Assembly (NCBI GenBank): GCA_900109895.1
Contig: FOBR01000029.1
Coordinates: 1 to 58,855 of the forward strand
Direction: 5' to 3'
DNA: 58,855 nt
DNA from: a bacterium A37T11
GTDB lineage: Bacteria; Bacteroidota; Bacteroidia; Sphingobacteriales; Sphingobacteriaceae
Part shown: piece by piece, positions 39,694 to 49,014 of the stretch
Position numbering within the stretch: the stretch's first letter is position 1
Layout of the letters: every line of letters begins with the position of its first letter
Program-made: the position numbers and the translations under genes
Notes under the pieces: generated by a model
What the model was told of the DNA's origin: nothing
Seen by the model: the letters and a program-made list of their open reading frames with translations, nothing else
Database searches by the model: none

Positions 39694-41853
39694 ATGTCCA
39701 CTATATTCCAAATAAAAAAGTATACAGAAATAATGAACATACTCCCCCAGAATTCCTGGTGGATACAAAGACTAGCCTATGATAAGTACGAGTGCGAAAA
39801 GGAAATAATTGCATATGCAGAAGGAGATGTGTTTTTTGAGCATCTTAATCTAGATTATATTCATCTCCAGATTAACTTAACTGATGAAACCTATTTAGAT
39901 CGGGTATCATTAATATTAGTAAATGGCAATGTTATTGCGAAAAATATTTTTAACGAAGAAACAGATGGCGCTGTGTCTGTCATGGTTCTTGGAAATTTGG
40001 AAGCAGATAATATACTAGTCGGCGGACAGGAAATCTATGTAACCGGAAATCTTATTGTACACAATCTATTTTGGGGCGATTACAATCACGGAGAACTAAT
40101 TGTAGAAGGAAATATTACCGCAAAGGTTCTGATGGCATCCGACTACAATTTTGATAGCGAGCGATTTTACAATAATGAAAATATAAATGTCGGATTATTG
40201 ATAGACGATAATGAAGCCCATGGTGTATATGCTCGAGAAATTATGGAAACTGCATTCAAAGAAGAATGCCTTTTAAAGGAAGAAGAAATAGATGAAGAAA
40301 TTTACAGCTATAAGAATTGGCTTAATACAATTGAGTTAATTAATCGACTGCATAAAAATACACCAATCCTACACGACAAAATTAAAGCGCTTCCTGAGGA
40401 CAACATACCGTTTGTGTTTGAAAACTATAATCTCACGGATAATCATATGGAACGTTTCCGTATATCCGACTTATTTGCGCTATTCGGCGACGACGAAACC
40501 CATTTGAAAGAACTGGAATTTGAGCATTTCGACACCTATAAACGTGTGAGAACGCAACCTAACAAGCCTTTTTCAACAAACATCTATTTGCAATATAAAC
40601 AAGAGTATGCCGTAATGATATTTTATTTTAATTATGAAGGCAATTTACGAAGAGGAATTGTATACAAATCATTTATTGAGGAAGATAAAGAGTGGCACAC
40701 CCTTGATCTCCAGCAGACACCCCTACCGTTAAAGGAATTCATAGAAAAAGCGTGGAAGAACCTTTTATTGGATTTTTCGGCGGCCGAATACTATCAACAA
40801 CAATTTTCCAGGCAAATCACGGTACAGGACATATACGATATATTGGCACTTCCGGTTGTCAAAAAACAATACAGTGATTATTATAACGATGAAGGCAAAT
40901 CATACTATATCGGCAATTTAATGGTGCAATTCAGGCAGAATGAAAACATAGAGGATGGCTGTCCAAGAATCAGTATAGTCAAAAGTATGCCGTACGCAAA
41001 AGATGATGCCCAAAATATCTTTTATCATTTAGACATAAATAAAGACGAATCAGGCACAGAAATCGTAACCTTGAATACTCAATATACAGACGGGTATGAC
41101 AGCGAAGTTTATCATGTATCCATTACCCATTACCAAAAATACAAGGAAATCTTATCCTATTTCGCCATAATAAAAAAGAAACTTGAAGCAACCAATAAGA
41201 AATATTTGAACAGATCTATGGTACGCACTCAAATATCCCCATCCTCTCCCATAGAGCAGGATTATTCGTATTTAGAACAGCTATGGCAAAACTGGATAGA
41301 TAGTATAAATCAATTCGTTCCAAAAGATAATGAGTATTATAATTTAACAGAAGGAATTTCACAAGAAGAAATAGAAAAATATACGATAATAGATGATAGC
41401 ACTAGCATTCCTGAAGAGCTTCTCTATTTTTATCGCATACAAAATGTGGAGTATCATCCGGTCACCTCTGCTTTCAGTATTTCAGTAAATGGGTGGGATT
41501 ACTATCTAATACCGTTTCAGGACATTTCTGAAGAATGGAATATTATGGATTTTCAGGAAGAAGAAGACTTTGAAAATGATATTTTAATTCCCCTTTCTGA
41601 AAAACTGTATTTAAATGGCTATACCAATCCACGTTGGATACCTTTTGCGACAGGTATGAATGGTGATTACTTACTTTATGATACAGACCCATCTGAAAAA
41701 GGCAAATACGGGCAGATTGTAGAATTACAAAATGAATCCTGGCAACGAAACGTAGTTGCAAACTCTTTAAAAGAATTGATTGAAAAGGAAATTAAAAATT
41801 TAAAAAAAACGGGTACTACAAAGTTTGATTTTATTTTGGGTAAATCTAATTGA
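39694..41853 (+). CDS. Large protein with beta-solenoid N-terminus and C-terminal SUKH (SMI1/KNR4) domain
   Basis: Protein of 719 residues. Residues about 70-160 form repeated short strands with VNGNVIAKNIF, VLGNLEADNIL, VTGNLIVHNLFWG and VEGNITAKVLM, a G-N-L/I/V repeat every about 20 residues like bactofilin or polymer-forming beta-helices. The middle (160-520) is acidic and unassigned. Residues about 526-700 match SUKH/SMI1-KNR4: SIPEELLYFYRIQN, the strand block, then PRWIPFATGMNGDYLLYDTDP and a final helix SLKELIEKEI. SUKH domains are immunity proteins against polymorphic toxins or contact-dependent effectors; no toxin gene is adjacent. The gene is monocistronic and richer in Glu, Asn and Ile than its neighbours. 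Confidence 0.8.
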   Translation: MSTIFQIKKYTEIMNILPQNSWWIQRLAYDKYECEKEIIAYAEGDVFFEHLNLDYIHLQINLTDETYLDRVSLILVNGNVIAKNIFNEETDGAVSVMVLGNLEADNILVGGQEIYVTGNLIVHNLFWGDYNHGELIVEGNITAKVLMASDYNFDSERFYNNENINVGLLIDDNEAHGVYAREIMETAFKEECLLKEEEIDEEIYSYKNWLNTIELINRLHKNTPILHDKIKALPEDNIPFVFENYNLTDNHMERFRISDLFALFGDDETHLKELEFEHFDTYKRVRTQPNKPFSTNIYLQYKQEYAVMIFYFNYEGNLRRGIVYKSFIEEDKEWHTLDLQQTPLPLKEFIEKAWKNLLLDFSAAEYYQQQFSRQITVQDIYDILALPVVKKQYSDYYNDEGKSYYIGNLMVQFRQNENIEDGCPRISIVKSMPYAKDDAQNIFYHLDINKDESGTEIVTLNTQYTDGYDSEVYHVSITHYQKYKEILSYFAIIKKKLEATNKKYLNRSMVRTQISPSSPIEQDYSYLEQLWQNWIDSINQFVPKDNEYYNLTEGISQEEIEKYTIIDDSTSIPEELLYFYRIQNVEYHPVTSAFSISVNGWDYYLIPFQDISEEWNIMDFQEEEDFENDILIPLSEKLYLNGYTNPRWIPFATGMNGDYLLYDTDPSEKGKYGQIVELQNESWQRNVVANSLKELIEKEIKNLKKTGTTKFDFILGKSN

Positions 41854-42244
41854 TTTAAAAATTTTTGTTTACCAACACATTAATAAAATGTGATATCTCT
41901 GTTTTCGTCCAGATTTGCTTCATTGTTTATAAGCAGAGCAACGGGCACAAATGCCTAAAGGAACTCATGCCGTACTGGATCGGAGAACCCTATATAATGC
42001 TAAACTTAAACTATTACGCAGACCTCCTCAGCCAAATATTTGCCGATCATAGGCTCACCCAGTTCCATTTAGAAGATCATTCCGGAGTCATTACAAATTA
42101 CATTATTTATCAACTTTACATGCTTTCGTTACATTTATTGAATGTAAATGTAAATTCAGAAAATTATGCATTTTCCAGCTCCAAGTATTTTTAATAAATT
42201 ACTACTTTTGCCTTTTTAAATTTAATCTAAATAAATAATTATAC
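41854..42244. other. AT-rich gap with possible small ORF and promoter
   Basis: 391 bases between the SUKH gene and the TonB receptor gene. A plus-strand frame (41865-42194, 109 residues) contains MPYWIGEPYIMLNLNYYADLLSQIFADHR, which looks protein-like, but has no recognisable family and no ribosome-binding site; it may be a decayed fragment. The right end carries the promoter element at 42203-42210. Confidence 0.5.
42203..42210 (+). promoter_or_regulatory. Putative -7 element of the TonB receptor - peroxidase operon
   Basis: TACTTTTG matches TAnnTTTG and lies 34 bases before the GTG start at 42245. The -33 position has no clear TTTG. Confidence 0.45.
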
Positions 42245-45034
42245 GTGAATAAAGTTTGCGCTTGTTGGAATACCTTAATTTGCTGCTTAATTATAGGCAT
42301 ATTGCCAACTACGGCACAACAGTCATCGCATCATTGGTCATTAAGTGGAACCCTTATAGATACAGTCCTTAATAAACCCGTCCCCTATGTAACAGTATAT
42401 GCACGTAAAAATGTCACCACCTATAAAACGGTGAGTGATCAAAACGGATTTTTTATGTTCAAAGAGCTACCATCAAATTTCTATAGTATTACGGTTTCTG
42501 CTTTAAATTATAAATCCCAGGATATTGGAATACGGTTAAATAAAAATGAAAATTTAATAATTCCTTTAACACAGCTACTTAGTGAACTTAATGAAGTTTA
42601 TGTCACGGCTGCGGAATCCAAAGGAATTACGAGTTCATCCATCATAGACCGGGATGCCATGCAGTTGTTGCAACCGTCTAGTTTTACAGACCTATTGGAG
42701 CTATTACCAGGAGGCACTTCAACAAATCCAAATTTAACTGAAATGAACCAGGTGAGAATAAGGGAATCTAACCCACCCAATAATCAATTTGATGCAACTT
42801 CATTGGGCATCGCCTTCTATGTGGATAATGCACCCATAAATACCTCCGCTAATATGCAAACTCTCTCTGGATTTTCTTTATCAAGCCCCAATGACGACCG
42901 GGTTTCAGTAAACAAAGGGGTTGACATGCGGACACTATCAACCGATCAAATTGCCCGAGTAGAAATTGTTCGTGGAATTTCGTCCGTGGAATACGGCGAC
43001 CTCACAAGTGGCCTCATCAAAATTGAACGAAAAAAAGGTCAGAGTCCACTCAGTATTCGCATCAAATCGGATGGATTCAGCAAATTGGTCGCCGGTAGTA
43101 AAGGGATCACCTTTAAAAACAATTTTACTATAAACTTGGATGCAGACTTTCTCGATTCAAAATCCGACCCCCGAAATAATTATGAAAATTATAAAAGATT
43201 GGGAACTTCCCTACGTACCGAGAAAAGTTGGGAATTCTCTGGCAGCAGTATCAAATGGAATGCTGCATTGGATTTAGCCAGCAATATAGACAACGAAAAA
43301 GACGATCCTGATAATTCCTATGCCGCAACGGACCGTTATCGGTCATCCTATCAGAGTTATGCCATGCTTCATCAATTTAGCTTAAAGCTCAAGGACCAAC
43401 AAAGCTTTGTAAACTCCATTGATCTGACAGCGAAACTAAGTTATGACCTGGATAAGATAGATATGGTAAAATTAATACAAGCAGGGTCTGCAGCCATTCT
43501 CGCCAACTCGCTGGTAGAAGGAGCCCATGATGCCTCGTATATAACACCATCATACACCGGGCATATGATTGTTGATGGCAAACCCTTCAATGCCTATATA
43601 AAAGCCGCTACAAATTTGCGGTATTTTACGGGTTCTATCCGTCACCAGTTCAAAATAGGATCAGAAGCCAACTTCAGCAAGAATTACGGAAATGGTCAGG
43701 TTTACGATCTAAATTTCCCGTTATCTTCATCCGCGTCTACCAACAGGCCAAGGGCTTTTAAAAGCATCCCTTCCATGCAGAACCTCTCTTTTTACGGCGA
43801 AGACGCTGTCAACCTACTAATCGGCAACCAGCAGATAGACGCTGTGGCAGGTGTTCGTGCCAGCAGCCTTTTAGGAATGGGCTCCCAATATCTCCTTGCC
43901 AACCACGTATATGCAGACCCGCGAGTCAATATTAGATGGAGCATTCCTACTTTTCATATGGGTAAAAACCCATTTTCCCTATCATTTGGAGGTGGTTGGG
44001 GCATGTTAACTAAATTTCCTACCCTAAAACAACTATATCCTGATCCGCAATATGTAGATCTCATACAGCTAAATTTCTATCATAATAATGCCGAATACAG
44101 AAAAGCCAATGTGATGACCTATATATTAGATGGCAGTAACTATAATCTTACAGCTGCCCGAAACAAAAAATGGGAATTTAATACGGATATTTCATTTATG
44201 GGGAACCGCCTATCGGTAACGTATTACCGGGAAAAGATGACATCAGGTTTTCGATCAACAAGTCAATACAGTGCCTTTGCCTATAAATCCTACTTGAACA
44301 GTTCTGTGGATGCAGCCAATATGACCGCAGCACCATCTTTAAGTGATTTCGATTATAAAGAACTCAAAGAATACTATAGTTATAGCATACCCAGTAATGG
44401 TAGTGCGACCATCAAAGAAGGAATAGAATATCAGCTTACTACAGCCCGCATATCGGTCATTAATACCCGGTTCACCCTCAATGGAGCTTGGTTTAAAACT
44501 GCCTATCTCAATAGTTTGCCTAATCCTGAAATTATAGATACAAAAACCATCACAGATGGAAAGGTTAGGCAATATATCGGTTTTTACCAAGATGACGACG
44601 GCTATTTAAGTCAGCAATTTAACACTAATCTTACCATAGACAGCTATTTGCCAAAAACAGGACTTAATTTATCTGCTTCCATCCAAAGCACATGGTTCTC
44701 AACCAGCCAAAGTGCCTATAAGTCAGGTACACCCTACCAATACATGGATATAGGGGGCAACATTTATGATTATACAGAAGCCGATAAAACTGACCCTAAC
44801 CTTCAGGTCCTCAATAAAAACTACAACGAAACGCAATTTAGAAAATATAAAACGCCGCTCGATATGGAGATCAACCTAAAAGCCTCCAAGAATTTGAAGA
44901 AAAGGGCGCGCATATCCATGTTTGTAAACCGCATCGTCACCTACTCGCCAGACTACATTTCCTACGGGGTAAAAATACGGCGTCAGGGCCTTGACAGTCC
45001 CTATTTTGGCATGGAACTAAACGTAAATTTTTAA
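42245..45034 (+). CDS. TonB-dependent receptor with carboxypeptidase-like regulatory domain
   Basis: Outer-membrane receptor of 929 residues starting at GTG, with signal peptide (cleavage near TTAQQ). An N-terminal CarboxypepD_reg-like domain occupies about 30-115 (LSGTLIDTVLNKPVPYVTVYA). The plug is at about 125-250 (SSFTDLLELLPGG, TDQIARVEIVRGISSVEYGDLTSGLIKIERK), followed by a barrel ending MELNVNF. No STN domain, so it is not a sigma-linked transducer. It is the first gene of a four-gene operon with a lipoprotein, a second barrel and a di-heme peroxidase, which suggests uptake of a metal complex or modified ligand. Confidence 0.92.
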   Translation: MNKVCACWNTLICCLIIGILPTTAQQSSHHWSLSGTLIDTVLNKPVPYVTVYARKNVTTYKTVSDQNGFFMFKELPSNFYSITVSALNYKSQDIGIRLNKNENLIIPLTQLLSELNEVYVTAAESKGITSSSIIDRDAMQLLQPSSFTDLLELLPGGTSTNPNLTEMNQVRIRESNPPNNQFDATSLGIAFYVDNAPINTSANMQTLSGFSLSSPNDDRVSVNKGVDMRTLSTDQIARVEIVRGISSVEYGDLTSGLIKIERKKGQSPLSIRIKSDGFSKLVAGSKGITFKNNFTINLDADFLDSKSDPRNNYENYKRLGTSLRTEKSWEFSGSSIKWNAALDLASNIDNEKDDPDNSYAATDRYRSSYQSYAMLHQFSLKLKDQQSFVNSIDLTAKLSYDLDKIDMVKLIQAGSAAILANSLVEGAHDASYITPSYTGHMIVDGKPFNAYIKAATNLRYFTGSIRHQFKIGSEANFSKNYGNGQVYDLNFPLSSSASTNRPRAFKSIPSMQNLSFYGEDAVNLLIGNQQIDAVAGVRASSLLGMGSQYLLANHVYADPRVNIRWSIPTFHMGKNPFSLSFGGGWGMLTKFPTLKQLYPDPQYVDLIQLNFYHNNAEYRKANVMTYILDGSNYNLTAARNKKWEFNTDISFMGNRLSVTYYREKMTSGFRSTSQYSAFAYKSYLNSSVDAANMTAAPSLSDFDYKELKEYYSYSIPSNGSATIKEGIEYQLTTARISVINTRFTLNGAWFKTAYLNSLPNPEIIDTKTITDGKVRQYIGFYQDDDGYLSQQFNTNLTIDSYLPKTGLNLSASIQSTWFSTSQSAYKSGTPYQYMDIGGNIYDYTEADKTDPNLQVLNKNYNETQFRKYKTPLDMEINLKASKNLKKRARISMFVNRIVTYSPDYISYGVKIRRQGLDSPYFGMELNVNF

Positions 45035-45055
45035 TTTTTAATTCATAAAAAACAT

Positions 45056-46258
45056 ATGAACACCAGAAACACATTTTTCTACTTTTACCTACTAATAACA
45101 TTAACCATCCTGCATTCCTGCAAAAAAGATGACGATCCCAGCACCAAAAAGACTGGAGTTGAAGTTGGACTAATTAATCCGCCGAACTTGGAAATCAGTA
45201 AATTTACCAGCCTGAACATTTCTTTCCAAGAAATAAACAGCGGAACTTCGCAAACCATCAGCCAAGTTCCTGAAACAAATAGCCTATCTACAACGCTGCC
45301 AGAGGGCGCTTACAATGTAAGCTTGGAAGGGGAAGCGGAATATAGCATTGGAGGAGTTGTCAACACTATAAAAATACGTGGATATAAAGAAAATTTTGTC
45401 GTAAGCGGAAGTAGTGTCAATCTGAGCCTTCCGTTATTCGTGTACAATGAAAATGCGGGTTTTGTATTCCAGGAGATTTATTTTACGGGGTCTGTTACAC
45501 CCGAAGGCAAGCAGTATTCCGGAGATAAATATATTATTCTAAAAAACAATTCAAACGAAGTGCTGTATGCTGACAGTCTGGTTATTGCCCAATCTTCTTT
45601 TTTGACTACCAGCTCGCACCAATACACACCAGACCTTATGTCCGAAGCCTTCACTTCGGGTGAAATTATTATGATACCCGGAAGCGGTAAAGACCACCCA
45701 GTACAGCCAGGAGCCACCTATGTAATTGCAGAGAATGCCATTAACCATAAAGAATACAATGTCAATTCAATCGACCTGAGCCATGCGGACCTTGAAATCC
45801 CTTTATTGGCTAGTATCAATGTAGATAACCCACAAGTACCAGACGCTATCAACATCACTCGTTACATAGCCATCCACAATCGAGGGTTCCGAAGCTTTGT
45901 CCTGGCCAAGTTTAACGGCATTAATATTGACAATTTTAAAACGGCCAACTATTATACCTATAGCTATACCTTAACAAGTGGGACTACGCTTAACCTCAAT
46001 GCTTATAAAATCCCAAATACCTTAATAGCAGATGCCGTAAATCTTAGCGTAGCTTCAGAATTTCAAATGATCGTTACAGACCCTTCGCTTGATATGGGAT
46101 GGACCTATTGTGGCACGGTTGATGCCGATCCTAATCGCTATGGCAAAAGCGTACAGCGCAAAGTGTTAAGCACCTCTGAAGATGGCCAGCAGATCTTGCA
46201 GGACACCAATAACTCTACCGTCGATTTCAATGCAGAACAGGTGCCTTCCTTGCAATAA
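45056..46258 (+). CDS. Lipoprotein, DUF4876-like
   Basis: Protein of 400 residues, lipobox LHSC (Cys22), so anchored at the outer membrane. Residues about 35-140 form an Ig/Big-like beta domain (VEVGLINPPNLEISKFTSLNISF). The rest is beta-rich with FVFQEIYFTGSVTPEGKQYSGDKYIILKNNSNEVLYADSLVI, a lamin-tail-like block often seen in proteins I recall as DUF4876. Besides the lipid cysteine it has a single Cys (352), and a single Trp (349), lying together in MGWTYCG. It follows the receptor by 21 bases and precedes the barrel gene by 3 bases, so the products probably act together at the surface. Confidence 0.8.
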   Translation: MNTRNTFFYFYLLITLTILHSCKKDDDPSTKKTGVEVGLINPPNLEISKFTSLNISFQEINSGTSQTISQVPETNSLSTTLPEGAYNVSLEGEAEYSIGGVVNTIKIRGYKENFVVSGSSVNLSLPLFVYNENAGFVFQEIYFTGSVTPEGKQYSGDKYIILKNNSNEVLYADSLVIAQSSFLTTSSHQYTPDLMSEAFTSGEIIMIPGSGKDHPVQPGATYVIAENAINHKEYNVNSIDLSHADLEIPLLASINVDNPQVPDAINITRYIAIHNRGFRSFVLAKFNGINIDNFKTANYYTYSYTLTSGTTLNLNAYKIPNTLIADAVNLSVASEFQMIVTDPSLDMGWTYCGTVDADPNRYGKSVQRKVLSTSEDGQQILQDTNNSTVDFNAEQVPSLQ

Positions 46259-46261
46259 ATC

Positions 46262-47782
46262 ATGAATATCCGTAAATATATCTGCATGCTGATACTCCTG
46301 GGCATACGACATGTATATGCCCAGGATTCGGTAGTTTATGAACCTAGCGGGCTGGAACTGGAGCAGACCATGCGTTTATTTCAGCTACAAAATGAATTTT
46401 ATGAAAGTCCGGCACTAAAACCACACCAGCACACTTTTTCATATTCGCAGATATTTGGTCAATACAATGACCAGCAGAACGATTTATACATTTACCAACT
46501 GGGCAATGGCCAAAAGAGCTGGCAAATCTTATCAGAATCTTATCAGAAGCCAGGAAAAGACCAGGCTCTTTGGGGTAAAGCGTATTATGCTAACAAAAAG
46601 TTGCTAGGGATCAATTATAACGAATCACTCGATTATGAAATAATCTATCCATACGTGATGGCTGACACGATAGGCGGCGATCTCCAATCTGAGACCTATT
46701 TTTTTGAGGGAGGCTACGCCAACCGGTGGAAAACTTTAACCTATGGTTTCAGTGGGGGCTTTCGTGGAGTTCAAGCCTATCGCGACCATGACCCACGCCC
46801 CAAAAATACCGTCTCTGATCTCTATTTAAAAATGTCTGTCGGAAAAATGCTATCACCCATTTATGAAATCAGTGTAGACCTAACCGGTGGCCTTTACAAA
46901 CAGCGCAATCAGTTGACATTTGTCAATGAATTGGGTGCTCCATATATATCGCAGGAAGCCGGTTTTGGTGTTTATAACAATTTAATATCTGGCAGTAATA
47001 ATACCGCCTACATCAATGGACAGCGCATTAGAAGTCAACTAAACATAGTCCCCGTTACCAAAAACGGGCTGGCAATGCAGCTTGCCATTGAAGATTTCAG
47101 TTTTCACAAACAACTCTCTAGCATTGTAGACAACATTGCCGATGCCAATGAAAAAAAATTATACGCCGCAATAGGATATCTTCGTCAAAGCGATCAGAAC
47201 CATAGCCTAATCCAATTTGTATTTGAGCATAACAGGCGTGAAGGCGTTGAAGCCAAATTTTCAAATTCAGGAAATAGTACCTCCATCACAAAAATAGCCG
47301 AAGACCTTCGCTTCTTAAATCGCGGCTTAATAGCATGTCTAAATGCAGGATATGGCACTTTGCACCCACATACAGCATGGACCATATCTGCAAACGTTGC
47401 CTATAAACAAAACGAAGCAACCTATGCAGATCCCAATCGCCGGATAGATGTATCCAATGTATCTGCCTCGCTAGAAATTGGCGGACTACACCATTACCAT
47501 AAAACCACAGTGAATGCCGTGCTTTCCATACAAAAAAATAGCAACCTATCCGAACAGTACCAATGGGAACAAGTAAAAACTGGATCGGGCGTGGAAAAAA
47601 TGCTACAGTCAACATATACCTATCTATCAGCAAATTATTGGAAGTTAGAAGCATCTTTTGGAGCCTTCCATCCGCTAACCTATAAATTAAAAGGTTTCAT
47701 TAAACTAGCTGGCGACTATACCCGATATGCACATCCATTTAATGGCCATCAATTAATTTTATCGGCTGGATGTATTTTTTAA
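46262..47782 (+). CDS. Outer-membrane beta-barrel protein, DUF6850-like
   Basis: Protein of 506 residues with signal peptide (cleavage near HVYAQ). The mature chain is made of paired amphipathic beta-strands with aromatic ends (for example YGFSGGFRGVQAYRDHDPR, YLKMSVGKMLSPIYEISVDLTGGLYK) and ends in LILSAGCIF, a C-terminal aromatic barrel signature. It matches what I recall as DUF6850-type barrels that accompany DUF4876 genes. Third gene of the operon; start 3 bases after the lipoprotein stop. Function unknown. Confidence 0.78.
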   Translation: MNIRKYICMLILLGIRHVYAQDSVVYEPSGLELEQTMRLFQLQNEFYESPALKPHQHTFSYSQIFGQYNDQQNDLYIYQLGNGQKSWQILSESYQKPGKDQALWGKAYYANKKLLGINYNESLDYEIIYPYVMADTIGGDLQSETYFFEGGYANRWKTLTYGFSGGFRGVQAYRDHDPRPKNTVSDLYLKMSVGKMLSPIYEISVDLTGGLYKQRNQLTFVNELGAPYISQEAGFGVYNNLISGSNNTAYINGQRIRSQLNIVPVTKNGLAMQLAIEDFSFHKQLSSIVDNIADANEKKLYAAIGYLRQSDQNHSLIQFVFEHNRREGVEAKFSNSGNSTSITKIAEDLRFLNRGLIACLNAGYGTLHPHTAWTISANVAYKQNEATYADPNRRIDVSNVSASLEIGGLHHYHKTTVNAVLSIQKNSNLSEQYQWEQVKTGSGVEKMLQSTYTYLSANYWKLEASFGAFHPLTYKLKGFIKLAGDYTRYAHPFNGHQLILSAGCIF

Positions 47783-47792
47783 TAATTATAAG

Positions 47793-48911
47793 ATGAAACG
47801 TGTGATAATTATTTTCTTTTCTCTATCTGCAGCTATTTTGTCAACGGCCTATTTCCCACAAGATGATGAGCTAAGATTACAGTACAGTAAACCCATATCC
47901 TCATGGCCCAAACCAGATATTGATTCAAATATCAACTATAAAGAATTTAGTGCACTGCCCGATTCGGGCCTGGAAATACTCAAAAAACAGCAAGAACCCC
48001 GCGCATACTTGGGTAAAATGCTGTTTTTTGACCCTTTACTATCTGGCTCAAACCAAATTTCTTGCAGCAGTTGCCATGATCCTGAAATGTCATGGGCAGA
48101 CAAGCGCGCAGTCGCCTTAGGAAATGATCACCTATTAGGCACACGAAATAGCATCTCCCTATTAAACGTAGCAGCCAGAAAGTCATTTTTCTGGGATGGC
48201 CGGGCTAAAACCTTAGAAGATCAAGCCCATAACCCCATTGCTGCGCACCATGAAATGGCCATGAAACCAGAATACCTTCCAAAAAAACTCCATAAGATTA
48301 CCCGTTATAGACAGCTCTTTGCCCAAGCATTTACAGACTCAGCAATAAACCTTGACCGCATAAGTAATGCATTAGCCGCATTTCAACGCACCATTGTCAG
48401 CAGGCGTAGTCGGTTTGATCAGTTTTTAGATGGCGAATACAAAGCGCTTTCAGATCAGGAAATCCTTGGCATGCACCTGTTCCGAACCAAGGCACGCTGC
48501 ATGAATTGTCACAACGGCCGCTACCTAACAGATGAAAAATTTCATAATATCGGACTCACCTATTACAAACGCAAATATCAAGACCTAGGACGCTATACGG
48601 TGACGGGAGATACCGCCGATGTGGGTAAATTCCGTACAGCCTCCTTACGTGATGTAATGAATACCGGACCATGGATGCACAATGGACTATTCAGAGGTGA
48701 TATGATTGGCCTTATTAATTTATACAACAGCGGCATGCATTTAATTGATCCAACCCCCGAACAGAAAGCAGCCGATCCTCTTTTCCCGATTACAGACCCC
48801 ATATTGCGTCCACTCCAATTAACAATAGAAGAAAAAAGGGCCATCATCGCATTTCTCAATGCAGTAACTGCTTCACCCAATTATATGTCCAGACCAGAAT
48901 TGCCCAGGTAA
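47793..48911 (+). CDS. Di-heme cytochrome c peroxidase / MauG-family protein
   Basis: Periplasmic protein of 372 residues. Signal peptide at 1-19. Two c-type heme sites: CSSCH at 91-95 and CMNCH at 236-240. Conserved family blocks include LGKMLFFDPLLSG, SWADKRAVALG, RNSISLLNVA, FFWDGRAKTLEDQA, FRTASLRDVMNTGPWMHNG (candidate distal Met in MHNG) and LVEFL-type ending (AIIAFLNAVT). Family members either reduce H2O2 or, like MauG and MbnH, oxidise residues on a partner protein. Its place at the end of the receptor-lipoprotein-barrel operon (10-base gap) suggests it acts with those proteins. Confidence 0.92.
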   Translation: MKRVIIIFFSLSAAILSTAYFPQDDELRLQYSKPISSWPKPDIDSNINYKEFSALPDSGLEILKKQQEPRAYLGKMLFFDPLLSGSNQISCSSCHDPEMSWADKRAVALGNDHLLGTRNSISLLNVAARKSFFWDGRAKTLEDQAHNPIAAHHEMAMKPEYLPKKLHKITRYRQLFAQAFTDSAINLDRISNALAAFQRTIVSRRSRFDQFLDGEYKALSDQEILGMHLFRTKARCMNCHNGRYLTDEKFHNIGLTYYKRKYQDLGRYTVTGDTADVGKFRTASLRDVMNTGPWMHNGLFRGDMIGLINLYNSGMHLIDPTPEQKAADPLFPITDPILRPLQLTIEEKRAIIAFLNAVTASPNYMSRPELPR

Positions 48912-48987: not shown

Positions 48988-49014
48988 ACCGGCAACCTAC
49001 CTAGATTTGCCGGT
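48988..49014 (-). terminator. Hairpin between the peroxidase operon and the SDR remnant
   Basis: An 8-bp stem, ACCGGCAA (48988-48995) with TTGCCGGT (49007-49014). On the minus strand it is followed by TTTATTAATAAAT, fitting a terminator for the former SDR gene to its right. It may also end the plus-strand operon. Confidence 0.5.

Follow-up and report, generated by a model that had tools for sequence, protein, structure and literature searches.

The 58,855-nucleotide contig FOBR01000029.1 of the bacterium A37T11 (assembly GCA_900109895.1), a member of the Sphingobacteriaceae within the Bacteroidota, was analysed as a whole and is hereafter called the window. It carries a compact operon of four genes, all on the forward strand, which encode a TonB-dependent receptor, a DUF4876 lipoprotein, a DUF6850 outer-membrane barrel and a di-heme enzyme of the MauG/CCP superfamily (Table 1). 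This gene order, the gaps of 21, 3 and 10 bases and the identities of the four products had been proposed in an earlier note on this DNA and are borne out by the open reading frame calls and by Pfam; the lipoprotein scores 169.6 bits against the DUF4876 cut-off of 27.9 bits, and the STN domain is absent from the Pfam matches of the receptor. The sequence likewise bears out the two heme motifs and the composition of the lipoprotein, in which W349 is the sole Trp and the only two Cys residues are C22 of the lipobox and C352. The note had regarded the genes as a candidate surface redox/uptake system in which the GWTYCG motif of the lipoprotein is the target of the enzyme; the uptake operon and a MauG-type heme site stand, but the motif as enzyme target does not. 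An iron-uptake operon with an optional di-heme enzyme is strongly supported in silico, and the operon, the family identities, the ligand residues, the co-inheritance and the Fur box are all established by computation.

Table 1. Genes and sequence features of the operon and its borders in the window.
Feature	Positions	Strand	Details
TonB-dependent receptor	42245-45034	+	929 aa, GTG start; Pfam CarboxypepD_reg/CarbopepD_reg_2 and Plug
DUF4876 lipoprotein	45056-46258	+	400 aa; Pfam DUF4876 1e-49, residues 217-398; lipobox C22
DUF6850 outer-membrane beta barrel with N-terminal helices	46262-47782	+	506 aa; Pfam 8e-71
Di-heme MauG/CCP-superfamily enzyme with N-terminal WP motif	47793-48911	+	372 aa; Pfam CCP_MauG 1.8e-52
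Fur-box-like operator TTTTAAATTTAATCTAAAT	42214-42232	+	15/19 to the Riemerella box; start codon 12 bp downstream
First heme motif CSSCH	48063-48077	+	CxxCH 91-95, H95
W134, Trp between the hemes	48192-48194	+	MauG Trp93
Second heme motif CMNCH	48498-48512	+	CxxCH 236-240, H240
Y311, expected distal ligand of the six-coordinate heme	48723-48725	+	aligned with MauG 294
W349-T-Y-C352 codons (GWTYCG)	46100-46111	+	modification target proposed earlier
TACTTTTG, match to the Bacteroidota -7 promoter element	42203-42210	+	read from sequence
Inverted repeat ACCGGCAA...TTGCCGGT, possible operon end	48988-49014	+	read from sequence

Identical proteins and near-identical upstream regions were counted once, which left 117 unique systems. 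The receptor gene lies nearby on the same strand in 117/117 and the barrel gene is present in 116/117, and the di-heme gene is on the same strand in 74, on the other strand in 8 and missing from 35. The conserved core is the receptor, the lipoprotein and the barrel, to which the di-heme gene is added as a fourth member, optional yet strongly linked. In a sample of 296 genomes of the phylum, DUF4876 was found in 29 genomes with 38 genes, and 33 of these loci (32 plus the window) were examined. A receptor is encoded upstream in all 33 (in two frames in locus L045) and a barrel downstream in 32, the profile used having detected none in L064, while that of L048 is cut by the contig end; the di-heme gene is present at 7 of the 33. 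A class-wide sample gave DUF4876 in 12 of 395 genomes. The same gene order is found in named genomes of the Sphingobacteriaceae, Weeksellaceae, Flavobacteriaceae, Chitinophagaceae and Spirosomataceae, and its recurrence in five families argues that it is more than chance. A search for relatives of the lipoprotein among viral contigs found none.

The core has other companions where the di-heme gene is missing. The A37T11 genome has a second receptor-DUF4876-DUF6850 set (L037, contig C15) with no di-heme gene nearby; downstream of it come a gene of 216 aa and one for a HEAT-repeat protein. Elsewhere the same genome encodes another two CCP_MauG proteins. HEAT proteins of about 740 aa (Pfam HEAT_2) with a conserved "SFAI" start directly follow the barrel in L043, L166 and L167 and lie slightly further on in L037 and L059, all beside di-heme-less DUF4876 operons; L160 and L161 have HEAT-type neighbours of about the same length, as judged by the N-terminus. 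The neighbour of about 740 aa at the second operon had been taken from its N-terminus for a gingipain-like peptidase, a candidate which was dropped when Pfam gave HEAT repeats alone. A gene of 276-282 aa belonging to no family follows the barrel in L163 and L165, and in L038 the barrel is followed by a 195-aa gene with PepSY_TM and DUF4857 further on. L041 (11430-12646) has a peroxiredoxin and a Dps-like ferritin in place of the di-heme gene. In L138 and at G699:C59:127726-136261, two oppositely oriented DUF4876 systems lie near one di-heme gene.

The di-heme genes of these operons belong to a distinct clade. A profile built from seven operon members and run over the 296 genomes gave at least 436 bits for the clade and at most 275 bits for the other CCP_MauG matches listed, and the clade was found in 16 genomes, adjoining DUF4876 in 7. 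Among 151 genomes of the window's family, DUF4876 is present in 34, the clade in 35 and both in 28 (Fisher p 2.7e-18, kinship uncorrected), and 28 of the 43 clade genes, including 27 of the 28 which score 520 bits or more, lie within 7 kb of DUF4876. The earlier note had counted frequent absence of the di-heme gene against its proposal; constancy of this gene does not hold across the phylum, where it is absent from 26 of the 33 loci, but in the window's family 29 of the 40 DUF4876 loci have a clade gene within 7 kb. In addition, 80 named loci, the best 80 of at least 563 relatives picked by similarity to operon members, include 73 with the whole set, 66 on one strand (64 by the scoring, plus L107 and L144 with the same order) and 7 divergent; L071, L074, L075, L077, L087, L118 and L148 have no whole set. 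Since in the 7 divergent loci the three genes still stand beside the di-heme gene, the linkage survives rearrangement.

Members of the clade are also found outside DUF4876 operons. Lower-scoring members occur after genes for a receptor of SusC size, a protein of SusD size and another lipoprotein in L154-L158, L171, L172, L174, L176 and L178 (of these, L154 has verified SusC and SusD genes and L171 a verified SusD gene and TonB receptor, the other loci being assigned by length and order), after a MATE gene in L169, which was scanned, and by likeness in L170 and L175, and in other settings in L152, L153, L159 and L173. In L077 a high-scoring member comes after a SusC operon which also includes genes for a metallopeptidase lipoprotein, a DUF4302-like protein (score below the cut-off) and a clostripain-like protein, an arrangement which L087 resembles. 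Judged by length and order, the di-heme gene of L118 and L151 stands alone between genes which in relatives, for example L080, lie on either side of the whole operon, the downstream one being UvrA-like in L118. Small lipoproteins of about 204-213 aa are encoded between the SusD-type and di-heme genes of L171 (8940-9554), L172 (7373-8014), L176 and L178; those of L171 and L172 matched no Pfam family. The DUF4876 operon of L177 (2325-11064), which includes a di-heme gene scoring 436 bits and a receptor in which no STN domain was found, lies behind a pair of ECF sigma and FecR genes.

Iron acquisition is very probably the service which the operon performs. A motif-free count of gapped palindromes in front of the receptors singled out TTATT-3-AATAA with its extensions (26/112 upstream regions versus 0.8), and this de novo palindrome agrees with a predicted Fur box, ATTTAGAATTATTCTAAAT, from Riemerella anatipestifer; in that organism Fur bound four promoters with putative boxes in an electrophoretic mobility shift assay (PMC5609570; the literature is used here and below in excerpts of the cited articles). 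The shorter pattern TTTAGTCTAAATAA with one mismatch gave 7 matches in the A37T11 genome and is uninformative because the reversed control gave 7 as well, whereas the longer, refined pattern separated, with 27 strand matches (21 sites) versus 0 for its reversed form and, in five relatives, 13/0, 14/3, 13/1, 20/0 and 28/4. In the window the two patterns recovered one and the same operator, at one and two mismatches. Eight of the 21 sites precede TonB receptors, namely those of the window, L221, L222, L224, L230, L233, L217 and L227, and the receptors of L221, L222, L224, L230 and L233 pass the NCBI siderophore-receptor cut-off. Three other sites precede ECF sigma genes (L037, L218 and L223), one a PepSY_TM gene and one a DUF4856 gene. 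The sigma genes at L037:4204-4802 and L218:3150-3742 (contig C15), each with a Fur-box-like site at one mismatch, share their N-terminus and look like a recent duplication; one of them lies downstream of the second DUF4876 operon.

The patterns for the scans of the A37T11 genome, of the relatives and of the SusC/SusD loci were built from the same upstream regions, and an outside motif was used only in the test with the published box, which counted matches of at least 15/19 within 250 bp of a start against the shuffled expectation. The box was found at receptor starts in 57 of the 74 same-strand di-heme systems (1.6 expected), in 7 of the 8 systems scored as divergent (0.0) and in 5 of the 35 di-heme-less ones (0.4). 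At di-heme starts it was found in 7 of the 8 divergent cases (0.0), in 4 of 13 orphans (0.1) and in 1 of 76 internal positions (0.3); the eighth divergent row is L138, the di-heme gene of which belongs to another, same-strand operon, so that the truly divergent di-heme genes have the box in 7/7 (16-17/19). Internal lipoprotein starts gave 0/74, and other genes of the same loci 31/667 (8.1). On these counts one front box serves the operon, and the enzyme gene often has a box where it does not lie downstream of that of the operon. At loci of the SusC/SusD kind, L154-L157 and L171 have a related site with 1-2 mismatches ahead of an ECF sigma gene; the presence of sigma and FecR genes was verified for L154, L171 and L177. 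Fur-box-like sites precede both genes in L177.

Expression data from other Bacteroidota point in the same direction. In Porphyromonas gingivalis and Bacteroides thetaiotaomicron, few genes respond to iron as strongly as those of the DUF4876/TonB loci: in low iron PG1019-22 rose 20.8- to 214.5-fold, BT3625-33 38.1- to 128.1-fold and BT1933-39 3.5- to 7.4-fold (PMC10434189). Moreover, a table of the hemin response includes a DUF4876 gene (PMC10470040), and PG1019 is tabulated together with hmuY (PMC12119571, PMC10101095). Whereas iron is thus strongly supported, no support for copper turned up in these analyses.

Several observations weigh against this interpretation. The box of the window is itself weak (15/19, P 0.02 taken alone in 2000 shuffles of its upstream region). 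The receptor on contig C15 of the same genome has no box (10/19), and together with the low count in di-heme-less systems (5/35) this means that the evidence for iron control comes chiefly from the kind with the di-heme gene. Nine of the 13 orphan di-heme genes have no box, and a divergent receptor and di-heme gene share their intergenic region, so that their boxes are not independent. In the A37T11 genome, 8 of the 21 sites are intragenic, precede a gene which is small or unidentified, precede a GH95 glycosidase gene (L226) or precede no gene, and a rhamnosidase gene likewise lies 7 bp from the L221 site; in the stretches scanned of L077, L172, L174 and L176, no site with four or fewer mismatches was found. 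The figure of 73/80 named loci is inflated by the choice of the closest relatives of operon members, and the sample of 151 genomes of the family is fairer. Furthermore, the orphan genes of L118 and L151 suggest that the enzyme may work without these neighbours.

The enzyme has, on its residues, a MauG-type heme site. In all 108 unique clade members W38, P39, both CxxCH motifs (C91, C94, H95; C236, C239, H240), W134, E154, H228, H296 and Y311 are invariant, and Q144 and H251 are each kept in 107 and W101 in 105. Y311 aligns with position 294 of the MauG chain and with a Tyr of BthA, and the register of W134 was set by its spacing to Q144, P148 and E154, as for BthA and MauG (PMC6405878). The scores are 209.6 bits for the MauG equivalog TIGR03791 (cut-off 443.85) and 198.4 bits for the MbnH model TIGR04039 (cut-off 362.85). 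Since the Tyr ligand and the inter-heme Trp are invariant but both scores fall under the cut-offs, the site is read as MauG-type and the protein is filed neither as MauG nor as MbnH. As to the Met ligand which canonical peroxidases have on the high-potential heme, the MauG and BthA alignments showed Tyr at the ligand position, and a Met of the peroxidase from Geobacter lines up with N309, but M315, conserved in 95/108, is near. The ligand Tyr of BthA is needed for the bis-Fe(IV) feature and not for peroxide turnover (PMC6405878).

In an MbnH-like rival reading, the enzyme would oxidise an aromatic residue of a partner, that is, of the lipoprotein, the receptor or the barrel, in order to build or tune a metal site. 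In favour of this, besides the invariant Tyr and Trp, MbnH/MbnP pairs can adjoin TonB receptors, and in Methylococcus a copper site of MopE contains a Trp converted to kynurenine (PMC3621798). The earlier note had made its proposal depend on conservation of the W-T-Y-C motif wherever the di-heme gene is present, and such conservation is at least partly lacking: W349 and C352 occur together in 19 of the 81 lipoproteins with a nearby di-heme gene, 44 of the 81 have at most one Cys and none beyond the lipid Cys, and WTYC is found in L041, where no di-heme gene lies near. Counted over unique systems, W349 is present in 44/74 same-strand, 0/8 divergent and 1/35 di-heme-less lipoproteins and C352 in 21/74 and 0/8 of the first two kinds, and in other groups with a di-heme gene position 349 is Ala, Arg, Phe or Tyr. 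Among di-heme lipoproteins every Trp column stays below 75% (W349, 44/82), and no Trp, Tyr, Cys, His, Met or Phe column of the lipoprotein is near-invariant in di-heme systems yet rare otherwise. The Trp/Cys pair was rejected as the target of the enzyme since it is not conserved with the di-heme gene. Counter to this rejection, in the 47 neighbouring tree rows which hold the window, residue 349 was read by eye as Trp in 43 and Tyr in 4, always aromatic, and the 43/47 weighs for the target.

Candidate residues in the partner proteins give a similar picture. Receptor Y833 is Tyr in 79/79 di-heme systems versus 21/32 of those without the gene, and barrel Y146 in 76/79 versus 14/32, which again favours modification of a partner. 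In a tree-aware comparison, from which length bounds left out 6 of the 117 systems, none of five residues of the lipoprotein, barrel and receptor clearly tracks the di-heme gene, although the four independent contrasts are too few to reach significance either way. In addition, the lipoprotein matches no MbnP family, and SusC/SusD operons, whose lipoproteins are different, make use of the clade too, which makes a single fixed protein target unlikely. Modification of a partner in the manner of MbnH is therefore considered improbable, and oxidation of the imported ligand fits better than one fixed protein target because the clade serves two types of transporter.

The reading which we favour as the probable one is that of an iron-uptake operon under Fur control, with an active role for the enzyme in it. 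Fur with iron would repress the operon from the operator at the promoter, and iron shortage would give one transcript; the DUF4876 lipoprotein would capture or present an iron-containing ligand, the receptor would import it, and the DUF6850 protein would be a second, porin-like barrel. The exported di-heme enzyme may then react with periplasmic peroxide to reach a high-valent, MauG-like state and oxidise some component of the uptake path, in the simplest case the iron ligand which has been imported and not the Trp or Cys of the lipoprotein, so that iron would be released or kept ferric. Given iron acquisition, oxidation of the ligand by the enzyme is possible, with the chances somewhat against it. 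In its widest form, it is proposed tentatively, and with some doubt, that this clade is a dedicated, Fur-controlled part of TonB-dependent iron uptake in Bacteroidota which shifts between DUF4876/DUF6850 and SusC/SusD transporters and oxidises the imported ligand by peroxide in the periplasm, an oxidative release of iron through a di-heme enzyme of the c type. The ligand, the location, the substrate and the chemistry in this scheme are inferred.

The main simple rival is protection from peroxide, in which a periplasmic scavenger of hydrogen peroxide is co-expressed with iron import and limits Fenton damage. BthA, which has the same Tyr-His ligation, converts hydrogen peroxide to water (PMC6405878), and the peroxiredoxin and Dps-like ferritin which replace the di-heme gene in L041 also suit this role. 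However, two hemes are spent per enzyme at iron shortage, when the genes for c-type cytochromes fall in the relative Riemerella (PMC5429918), which argues for a catalytic role in acquisition over housekeeping, and a tight tie to two kinds of TonB transporter would not be expected of a general scavenger; a purely protective enzyme is accordingly thought unlikely. Another alternative is electron transfer through the envelope or to the outside, in which the barrel and the di-heme protein would pass electrons out and reduce ferric iron at the surface. A barrel beside a heme protein recalls porin-cytochrome complexes, but there are two hemes only, 35/117 systems have a barrel of this family but no such di-heme gene, and the lipoprotein with its two Cys has no CxxCH, so that this alternative is very improbable.

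Structures were predicted for the lipoprotein and the barrel. The model of the lipoprotein (pLDDT 90.7) has as its best match 4q1z, the DUF4876 protein BT_1938 of B. thetaiotaomicron (Foldseek E 6e-26, TM 0.56). That of the barrel (pLDDT 93.7) shows 18 strands of 12 or more residues preceded by helices at 29-55, and it is porin-like by VIA-align (best CymA 4v3g, Z 18.8, rmsd 5.0, 295 aligned), with weak global Foldseek matches at TM about 0.3-0.4; as modelled it appears to be a generic porin-like barrel, the fold of which names no function. The di-heme protein is probably exported, judging by a signal read by eye, and the lipoprotein presumably lies at the cell surface. At the promoter, TACTTTTG was matched to TAnnTTTG, which we take to be the consensus of the -7 element. 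At the other end, the loop of 11 in ACCGGCAA...TTGCCGGT is over the limit of the terminator scan, which did not list this repeat. Promoters with -7/-33 elements are used by such bacteria (PMC5609570). The forward strand also carries a 719-aa gene ahead of the operon (39694-41853).

Di-heme enzymes of the MauG superfamily are numerous and mostly of unassigned function, and a Fur-boxed, TonB-linked clade with an invariant MauG-type site offers a specific and genetically simple place to ask what is oxidised. The DUF4876/DUF6850 systems, which are strongly iron-repressed in gut and oral Bacteroidota, gain a three-gene definition, and the making of an iron-costly enzyme at iron scarcity is a testable puzzle.

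No description of the four-gene system was found in the literature searched, from which subscription journals were mostly outside, and neither DUF4876 nor this enzyme was found in excerpts of the Flavobacterium and Riemerella literature on iron and heme with search terms which do not cover every name. The nearest described loci are PG1019-1022, BT1938-39 and BT3625-3633, which have, like the window, a receptor and a DUF4876 lipoprotein, and which are induced by iron shortage; their products include HEAT, PepSY, DUF4857 and ABC proteins and, unlike the window, those listed in the excerpts name no di-heme enzyme, nor was "cytochrome c peroxidase" found in the main text (PMC10434189). The copper systems MbnH/MbnP, CorB/CorA and SACCP/MopE share a di-heme CCP-superfamily enzyme with the window, some of them near TonB receptors (PMC3621798). 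Unlike MbnH/MbnP, the operon of the window has no MbnP (none of its four proteins matched the family in Pfam or NCBIfam at E 0.1), its enzyme falls below the MbnH cut-off, its predicted control is by a Fur box and iron, and it has no conserved Trp target. BthA of Burkholderia shares the Tyr-His six-coordinate heme and is the nearest solved match to the C-terminal 153 residues, but it has Ser in place of the inter-heme Trp and is always near a putative phosphatase gene (PMC6405878). MauG of Paracoccus denitrificans has the counterparts of Y311 (Tyr294), of W134 (Trp93) and of the distal set Q144/P148/E154, and the enzyme of the window differs from it by its sub-cut-off score and by its TonB-receptor context. 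Finally, EfeUOB is a system in which a heme peroxidase, EfeB, is made under iron limitation within an uptake system, although EfeB differs from the enzyme of the window in fold and heme type and EfeUOB is an inner-membrane system for ferrous iron.

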